Part shown: positions 31,749 through 33,154 of the stretch, one piece after another
How positions within the stretch are numbered: the stretch's first letter is position 1
Layout of the letters: each line of letters starts with the position of its first letter
Source of the DNA: Halanaerobium saccharolyticum
GTDB lineage: Bacteria; Bacillota; Halanaerobiia; Halanaerobiales; Halanaerobiaceae
DNA: 48,274 nt
Direction of reading: 5' to 3'
NCBI RefSeq assembly: GCF_004362045.1
Contig: NZ_SNWX01000024.1
Location: 1-48,274, forward strand
Notes under the pieces: model-generated
What the model saw: the letters and a program-made list of their open reading frames with translations, nothing else
What the model was told of the DNA's origin: nothing
Databases searched by the model: none
Translations under genes and position numbers: made by a program

Positions 31749-31775
31749 TATATTTAAGATAATAATGATTATTAA
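31747..31775 (-). promoter_or_regulatory. probable trpS promoter, overlapping the perR promoter
   Basis: On the minus strand a weak -35 (TTAATA, 31775-31770) and a consensus -10 (TATAAT, 31752-31747) have 17-base spacing. The PerR-like palindrome lies inside this spacer. Confidence 0.5.
31760..31774. promoter_or_regulatory. PerR/Fur-type operator
   Basis: TAATAATGATTATTA is a perfect 7-1-7 inverted repeat. It closely resembles the established PerR box TTATAATNATTATAA. It lies just downstream of the perR start point and within the divergent trpS promoter. Confidence 0.75.
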
Positions 31776-31795: not shown

Positions 31796-32188
31796 ATGGC
31801 CACGAATACTAGAATGACTAAACAGCGCAGGGCAATATTGAGGGTGTTAAAAAGTACTAAATCTCATCCTACAGCTGATTGGATATATGAAAAAGTTAGA
31901 AAAGAAATTCCAAACATTAGTTTAGGTACTGTTTACCGAAATTTAAATGTTTTAGCAGAAAACGGTGAAATTAATGTTTTAGACTATGGAAGTAACCACA
32001 GTCGCTATGATGGTAATCCTGTTCATCATTATCATTTCCGCTGTCAAAAATGTGGAGGAGTTTATGATTTAGATCTCGACTTAAATGTAGATTTAAATAA
32101 TAAAATAAATACTAAAACTGAATTTATCGCTCATTCTCATCGCTTAGAGTTTAGCGGAATTTGTCCAAAATGTCAGCAGAAAAATTAA
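31796..32188 (+). CDS. perR: PerR-type peroxide-sensing repressor (Fur family)
   Basis: A 130-residue Fur-family metalloregulator and the only plus-strand gene. The five metal ligands of Bacillus subtilis PerR (H37, D85, H91, H93, D104) all have counterparts at a constant offset of 13 (H24, D72, H78, H80, D91), as do the four structural zinc cysteines (C83, C86, C123, C126). D72, rather than Glu, at the D85 position is the PerR-type feature. The N-terminal winged helix includes ISLGTVYRNLNVL. The start ATG follows AGGAGG. It is probably autoregulated through the operator at 31760-31774. It is convergent with the AhpD-RNase HI gene. Confidence 0.93.
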   Translation: MATNTRMTKQRRAILRVLKSTKSHPTADWIYEKVRKEIPNISLGTVYRNLNVLAENGEINVLDYGSNHSRYDGNPVHHYHFRCQKCGGVYDLDLDLNVDLNNKINTKTEFIAHSHRLEFSGICPKCQQKN

Positions 32189-32209
32189 ATTTTTTCTGCT
32201 TCTTTTTTT
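32175..32209 (+). terminator. perR terminator, possibly bidirectional
   Basis: The stem AGCAGAAAAA (32175-32184) pairs with TTTTTCTGCT (32191-32200), followed by TCTTTTTTT. The loop TTAAAT holds both convergent stop codons. On the opposite strand the hairpin has a weaker T-run. Confidence 0.85.
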
Positions 32210-33048
32210 GCCAGTATATCAACTTCATCATTAAATTGATCACCACTGTGGCCTTTTACTTTCTGATAAGTCAATTCAAAGTCAGAACTAAGTTGATCCA
32301 ATTGCTGCCACAAATCCTGATTGGCCACTGCCTTTTTAGCTGCTGTTTTCCAGCCATTTCTCTTCCAGCCCTCTATCCAGTTTGATAATCCGTTAAGTAC
32401 ATAAGTTGAATCACTATAAAGTTCTACCCTGGTATTTTTAGGAATTATCTTTAGAGCTTCAATTACTGCTTTTAATTCCATTCTATTATTAGTAGAATCT
32501 TTTTCTGATCCTGAAACTGTTTTTAATTTTTGAAAATCTGGATTTAAAATAACTGCAGCATATCCCCCTGGACCCGGATTCCCGAGACAGGCTCCATCAG
32601 TGTATACTTTAAACTCCTGATATTTATCTAAATTTTTCATTTCTCTCTTATCAGACTCATCTGAACTTTCTTCCTTCTCGACAGCTGAAATGTCCTCTTT
32701 ACTCTTATCAGGCTCCAGCTCCTCTAAAAGCTTAGCCGCTCTTCTCAAATGGGGAATTACAATTGAGCCTCCAACAATTAAACCAACATTCATCGCTTCA
32801 TAAATTTCCTCTCTGGACCATCCTCTTTTAACTGCTTCAATTATATGATATGTAATACAATCATCACATCTTAAAACCAGAGAGGAAACCAGTCCTAATA
32901 ATTCTTTAGTTTTAGCGGGTAGTTTCCCATCCTGATAAACTTTATGATCCAGATTAAAAAATCTTTTGGTATTCAGATCTCCTTCTTCTAATATCAAATC
33001 ATTCATTTCAGATCTAAATTCATTGAATTCATCTAAACTATCCTGCAT
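32185..33048 (-). CDS. rnhA: fusion of AhpD/carboxymuconolactone-decarboxylase-like domain with RNase HI
   Basis: A 287-residue two-domain protein. Residues about 30-110 form an AhpD-like domain with the redox motif C61-D-D-C64 and H68, preceded by KTKELL, as in alkylhydroperoxidase-like proteins. A charged, acidic linker (about 112-142) joins it to a complete RNase HI domain (about 145-287) with catalytic D151, E191, D213 and D277 and the KGHSGD loop. RNase HI removes RNA from RNA-DNA hybrids. A good GGAGGG site precedes the ATG. An internal ATG (32640) could start RNase HI alone but lacks a good ribosome site. It converges on perR. Redox control of RNase H is only a hypothesis. Confidence 0.9.
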   Translation of the reverse strand: MQDSLDEFNEFRSEMNDLILEEGDLNTKRFFNLDHKVYQDGKLPAKTKELLGLVSSLVLRCDDCITYHIIEAVKRGWSREEIYEAMNVGLIVGGSIVIPHLRRAAKLLEELEPDKSKEDISAVEKEESSDESDKREMKNLDKYQEFKVYTDGACLGNPGPGGYAAVILNPDFQKLKTVSGSEKDSTNNRMELKAVIEALKIIPKNTRVELYSDSTYVLNGLSNWIEGWKRNGWKTAAKKAVANQDLWQQLDQLSSDFELTYQKVKGHSGDQFNDEVDILAKKEAEKI

Positions 33049-33131
33049 TTAATCCCTCCTGGTTCTAGTCAATATATATAATGTTATAAGATAAATCGAT
33101 AGATAGTAATAATACAAAAAATCAAAAGAAA

Positions 33132-33154
33132 CCGGACAGCAAAATGCCGCCCGG
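33132..33154 (-). terminator. intrinsic terminator of ptsI
   Basis: A 10-bp stem (two G-U pairs in the RNA) of CCGGGCGGCA and TGCTGTCCGG with loop TTT, followed by TTTCTTTT on the minus strand. It lies 15 bases past the ptsI stop. Confidence 0.85.

Follow-up and report, generated by a model that had tools for sequence, protein, structure and literature searches.

Our analysis shows that Halanaerobium saccharolyticum carries its RNase HI as the C-terminal half of a fused protein, in which a CMD/AhpD-like domain precedes the nuclease in one open reading frame. At roughly even odds (a probability of about 0.5), we read this protein as a housekeeping RNase HI attached to a TM1620-type CMD thiol domain, derived from the merging of cmd and rnhA of a cmd-mscS-rnhA cluster and acting bifunctionally. 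The features discussed below, in coordinates of the window (the whole stretch of 48,274 nucleotides that was analysed), are as follows.

31760 to 31774, plus strand: palindrome TAATAATGATTATTA, resembling a Per/Fur box (12/14), upstream of perR; in an AT-rich genome such a match does not stand out clearly from chance
31796 to 32188, plus strand: gene for a regulator of the FUR family, perR-like; it runs convergently to the fused gene, and the two ends overlap
32175 to 32200, no strand assigned: terminator-like hairpin across the overlap of the fused gene with perR
32185 to 33048, minus strand: fused coding sequence, CMD/AhpD-like domain plus RNase HI, 287 aa in one open reading frame, with a ribosome-binding site (AGGAGG) at 33055-33060
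32197 to 32613, minus strand: RNase HI domain, residues 146-284, with catalytic D151, E191, D213, H267 and D277
32614 to 32715, minus strand: charged linker, residues 112-145, of variable length and under weak selection
32638 to 32640, minus strand: internal ATG at residue 137, without a well-spaced Shine-Dalgarno sequence and absent from relatives
32716 to 33030, minus strand: CMD domain of the TM1620 type, residues 7-111, matching PDB 1vke/1p8c with E 1e-40 (Pfam CMD at 28-106)
32845 to 32868, minus strand: C61-D-D-C64-x3-H68 motif with E49 upstream (E-x11-C-x2-C-x3-H), kept in all compared relatives, fused and stand-alone, except H. praevalens
33132 to 33154, minus strand: terminator-like hairpin after ptsI, which sets ptsI apart from the fused gene

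The fused gene opens with an ATG behind a strong Shine-Dalgarno sequence, and the hairpin on its ptsI side is also visible upstream in most Halanaerobium loci. Along the 287-residue chain, Pfam placed a CMD domain (residues 28-106, E 5.5e-16) and an RNase_H domain (residues 146-284, E 1.7e-42), both far above the curated cut-offs. NCBIfam identified the N-terminal half as an AhpD core domain and the C-terminal half, at the equivalog level, as ribonuclease HI (185 bits against a cut-off of 160); the score of the fused protein for NF001236 (RNase HI, rnhA) lies above its cut-off. An earlier note on this DNA had described two intact domains in one chain, a description that these matches and the active-site residues confirm. 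It had also called the four-acid RNase HI site intact, correctly: D151, E191, D213 and D277 are present and, together with H267, are invariant across 13 fused proteins. By its fold and catalytic residues we assign the C-terminal half to RNase HI, with Mg-dependent hybrid cleavage as its predicted activity. This half contains a single cysteine, common to unfused relatives, and no extra one. The fused protein is the genome's only RNase HI-type (PF00075) match, and one RNase HII is present besides.

In the CMD half, previously noted as an intact CxxC-H peroxidase-like domain, E49, C61, C64 and H68 were all found, and among 31 CMD sequences that we compared, 30 have the E-x11-C-x2-C-x3-H motif intact, as does TM1620. 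AhpD proper has a C-S-H-C motif, with a proton-relay His between the cysteines. The CMD half has C-D-D-C, with no such His, and the sole AhpD model whose cut-off it passed was the core-domain model TIGR00778. Judged from its sequence, it is AhpD-like, not AhpD. Residues 7-111 align without gaps (E 1e-40) to the PF02627 protein of PDB entries 1vke and 1p8c, which we take to be TM1620 of Thermotoga maritima, and the RCDDCIxYH core is identical; TM1620 differs from the Halanaerobium fusion in being a stand-alone chain of 133-145 aa, without an RNase H domain. Both entries hold six chains, and the single-chain model of the Halanaerobium CMD half is of low confidence. The AlphaFold model of the fused protein has a mean pLDDT of 62 overall, with mostly good values in the RNase H half, low values in the CMD half and mostly low values in the linker. 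Because the CMD half was modelled at low confidence, we make no structural claim for the fusion protein.

We examined how widely the fusion is distributed. RNase HI was present in 32 of 38 genomes of the order, and all Halanaerobium genomes that have rnhA encode the CMD-RNase H fusion, which contig ends interrupt in G019. The closest named relative, H. saccharolyticum MSL 17.2, is 90% identical. The fusion also occurs in two more genera of the same family (G021 and G022; g2 and g3) and in two genera of a second family (G023 and G030, the latter with a longer linker). The search for CMD plus RNase H architectures, suggested in the earlier note, covered a phylum sample of 398 genomes and one scan of close relatives; it found the fusion in other genomes, with full-length matches within the phylum sample only in family f1. 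The worry that the fusion might be peculiar to one genome thus falls away, as at least 13 other genomes carry it. Its occurrence in many independent genomes also rules out a frameshift or assembly artefact. A phage source was rejected as well, as 80 viral loci matched the RNase H half only, from residue 115 or later. In the comparison of L001 with L024, the CMD half had a dN/dS of ~0.06 and the RNase H half one of ~0.12, against ~0.5 in the linker. The low values for CMD and RNase H mean that both halves are under selection, which is strongly purifying in the two domains and not in the linker; the linker is charged, as had been reported, and variable besides. A literature search for RNase H with CMD, AhpD, TrmO or TM1620, with subscription journals mostly outside its scope and domain databases possibly listing the architecture, turned up no account of the fusion, and the earlier note had likewise known of no description.

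The origin of the fusion can be approached through its unfused relatives. Stand-alone cmd genes of the same type lie in the same cluster in families f2, f3, f4, f5 and f7, where neighbouring genes are often only a few bases apart or overlap. The gene order in L094 is cmd, mscS, rnhA, with a 5-base gap and then a 1-base overlap, and that in L095 is cmd, a possibly broken mscS, and a degraded TrmO domain fused to rnhA; in L096 cmd overlaps TrmO-rnhA by 4 bases, and in L102 cmd is followed by TrmO-rnhA. Since cmd adjoins rnhA in unfused relatives, the Halanaerobium fusion joined existing cluster neighbours. L099 (G024) has cmd and mscS beside perR, without rnhA. A gene for an MscS-type mechanosensitive channel was seen between or beside cmd and rnhA in L094, L095, L098 and L099, and PF00075 matched no RNase HI in genomes G024, G025, G026 and G027 of family f4. 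The fused L030 fell, in the CMD tree, among stand-alone CMDs from the family to which it belongs (97/97), and both a single clade of all fused rows (p-AU 0.026) and a clade of f1 plus L030 (p-AU 0.003) were rejected. The CMD tree thus speaks against one common origin for all CMD-RNase H fusions, which the RNase H tree did not reject (p-AU 0.094); branches are long. The CMD-tree rejections and the placement of L030 favour more than one event, so fusion of these operon neighbours probably happened more than once; fission in place of repeated fusion is possible.

CMD is one of several partners found at the N-terminus of RNase HI. TrmO_N (PF01980) occupies this position in five loci in f7 and four in f3 (L002-L004, L006, L009, L011, L017, L023 and L028), as established by Pfam for three of the nine (E 1e-31 to 1e-34) and by tblastn for the remainder. 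These proteins are encoded at the same locus and have the same RNase HI with an unrelated N-terminal enzyme domain; they differ from the CMD fusion in that the partner is of tRNA methyltransferase type and that cmd, if present, is a separate gene just upstream. Three of the TrmO_N-RNase HI fusions found lie at the following positions.

L003, 1063 to 1932, plus strand: TrmO_N-RNase HI fusion
L096, 2087 to 2959, minus strand: TrmO_N-RNase HI fusion
L102, 2544 to 3416, minus strand: TrmO_N-RNase HI fusion

Some genomes with this fusion have a separate TrmO gene too, and a degraded TrmO remnant was seen in L005/L095. Five loci (L007, L015, L016, L019 and L027) encode an RNase HI without an N-terminal partner. 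In the f4 loci L012 (429-1487) and L029 (G028/G029), RNase HI bears an N-terminal extension of ~200-310 residues, and the long f4 extension, tested on L098, gave no Pfam family match. A further family of the phylum has RNase HI joined in frame to phosphofructokinase (L118, 2174-3784, where Pfam was run; L124, 1800-3425).

One orthologue departs from the general pattern. L013 (1090-1929), the fused orthologue in genome G014, which we took as H. praevalens GSL (PMC3156398), is without C61, C64 and H100, and does not show the E-x11-C-x2-C-x3-H motif of a TM1620-type CMD. Its reading frame is still fused and its RNase H half retained; dN is ~4 times that of congeners in the CMD half and near normal in the RNase H half. 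Since the CMD cysteines were lost and the fusion was kept, RNase HI of H. praevalens can do without the CMD active site. That CMD activity is dispensable in one lineage counts against our main reading. The same loss provides a natural control for the role of the attachment.

According to our main reading, cmd and rnhA of one conserved cluster would have become one reading frame, giving a presumably bifunctional protein whose CMD half would retain a thiol chemistry of its own and probably assemble as an oligomer, a hexamer to judge from relatives with six chains per entry. The RNase HI half would clear RNA from RNA-DNA hybrids as usual, tethered by a flexible linker to the CMD core. The gain from the join would be co-expression of the halves, and perhaps multivalent display, instead of a redox switch; the nearby perR would be inherited synteny, outside the machine.

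The earlier note had proposed as a hypothesis that RNase HI is tied to oxidative stress, for instance by a thiol switch or by docking of a redox partner; we weighed this idea as one acting through C61/C64 under the control of PerR. The CxxC is intact in most members, and perR does adjoin the fused gene on the opposite strand, as that note had seen, the two being convergent with overlapping ends; the product of 31796-32188 exceeded the Pfam cut-off for FUR, and PerR models were its best matches, below their curated cut-offs. The linkage holds up in relatives, with perR convergent beside rnhA in 29 of 30 loci, but it is as common in loci without the CMD fusion (16/17) as in CMD-fused ones (13/13). 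Because the linkage is the same with CMD, TrmO or no partner, the adjacency is uninformative about CMD, and the perR neighbourhood is most likely older than the CMD fusion. There is no promoter shared by perR and the fused gene, and no Per box was found before the latter, the best site (33063-33077) having 4 mismatches and being equalled by 38% of shuffles. In L011/L096 and L017, from two close genomes of f7, a near-consensus Per box (1 mismatch) lies upstream of stand-alone cmd; a weaker one (2 mismatches) lies 145 bases before cmd in L095, so peroxide control of stand-alone cmd is possible in these relatives; no box was found before cmd in L094, L098, L099 or L102. As the fused gene has no box of its own, and boxes before stand-alone cmd are so patchy, its control by PerR was rejected as unsupported. 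Two more findings speak against a thiol switch: the RNase H half has no cysteine beyond the common one, and both CMD cysteines are gone from H. praevalens, where the fusion is kept. We consider this connection to oxidative stress improbable, and give just as little credence to its broader form, in which the CMD core would sense or handle peroxide and shift the activity or location of RNase H, R-loop removal would track oxidative stress, and repeated joining would have been selected as useful.

The main role of the CMD half might be to oligomerise or dock, so raising the avidity or processivity of RNase HI as the hybrid-binding domain does in other RNases H1, with thiol chemistry secondary. The six chains per entry of solved CMD relatives, the in-frame retention of CMD in H. 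praevalens after the loss of both cysteines, and the presence of TrmO_N, another kind of folded domain, at this site in other families of the order all fit such a role. However, the catalytic motif is intact everywhere else and CMD dN/dS is as low as that of RNase H, which suggests more than a scaffold; moreover, several relatives (the five loci without a partner) manage without an N-terminal domain, and in H. praevalens the whole CMD is diverging, as if scaffolding mattered little there too. We hold this role to be possible but not likely. That the operon neighbours fused by chance, in a nearly neutral event that left the halves independent and brought no gain, we regard as unlikely. RNase HI is fused elsewhere to unrelated neighbours (TrmO_N in the same order, phosphofructokinase in L118 and L124), and its CMD half is decaying in H. 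praevalens, but the fusion is conserved throughout a family, and according to the CMD trees a second family probably made the join independently at least once. It is very improbable that RNase HI is mainly a separate product of an internal start, with a fusion devoid of functional meaning. The ATG at 32640, from which the earlier note had envisaged RNase HI alone being made, is unique to this genome and has no well-spaced Shine-Dalgarno sequence; the nearest relative, L024 (90% identical), has Ile at this position, and the other CMD-fused loci have no ATG, GTG or TTG in the linker after CMD, bar stray edge codons (own-frame residues 118 in L010, 119 in L026, 120 in L014 and 146 in L030). With relatives' linkers almost devoid of start codons, and this ATG absent from them, an independent RNase HI product is unlikely.

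Within one bacterial order, the RNase HI N-terminus is an attachment site for different enzyme domains (CMD, TrmO). If attachment alters processivity or couples the removal of hybrids to thiol chemistry, RNase H would be under a novel type of control; without such an effect, the fusions would be a clear example of operon neighbours joining repeatedly. As a rule, RNase HI stands alone as a small enzyme or comes with a hybrid-binding domain. The Halanaerobium protein has the same catalytic residues as E. coli-type RNase HI (rnhA, PF00075, NF001236), with an equivalog-level score, but the latter starts at the RNase H fold, whereas Halanaerobium adds a 145-residue N-terminal CMD plus linker. RNase HI with a hybrid-binding domain (eukaryotic RNase H1) likewise consists of a folded N-terminal domain, a linker and RNase H; in contrast to the hybrid-binding domain, the N-terminal domain of Halanaerobium is an unrelated, helical thiol enzyme. 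By eye, we read L122 as a bacterial RNase HI with a hybrid-binding domain. In the bifunctional RNase H/acid phosphatase (NF005567), the phosphatase domain is C-terminal. This enzyme is a precedent for an RNase H domain joined to an unrelated enzyme; its match to the Halanaerobium protein covers part of the RNase H half, below the cut-off, and the partner there is a phosphatase. Set beside these systems, CMD-RNase HI is most likely a housekeeping RNase HI, bifunctional or scaffolded, in which known domains occur in a new combination.
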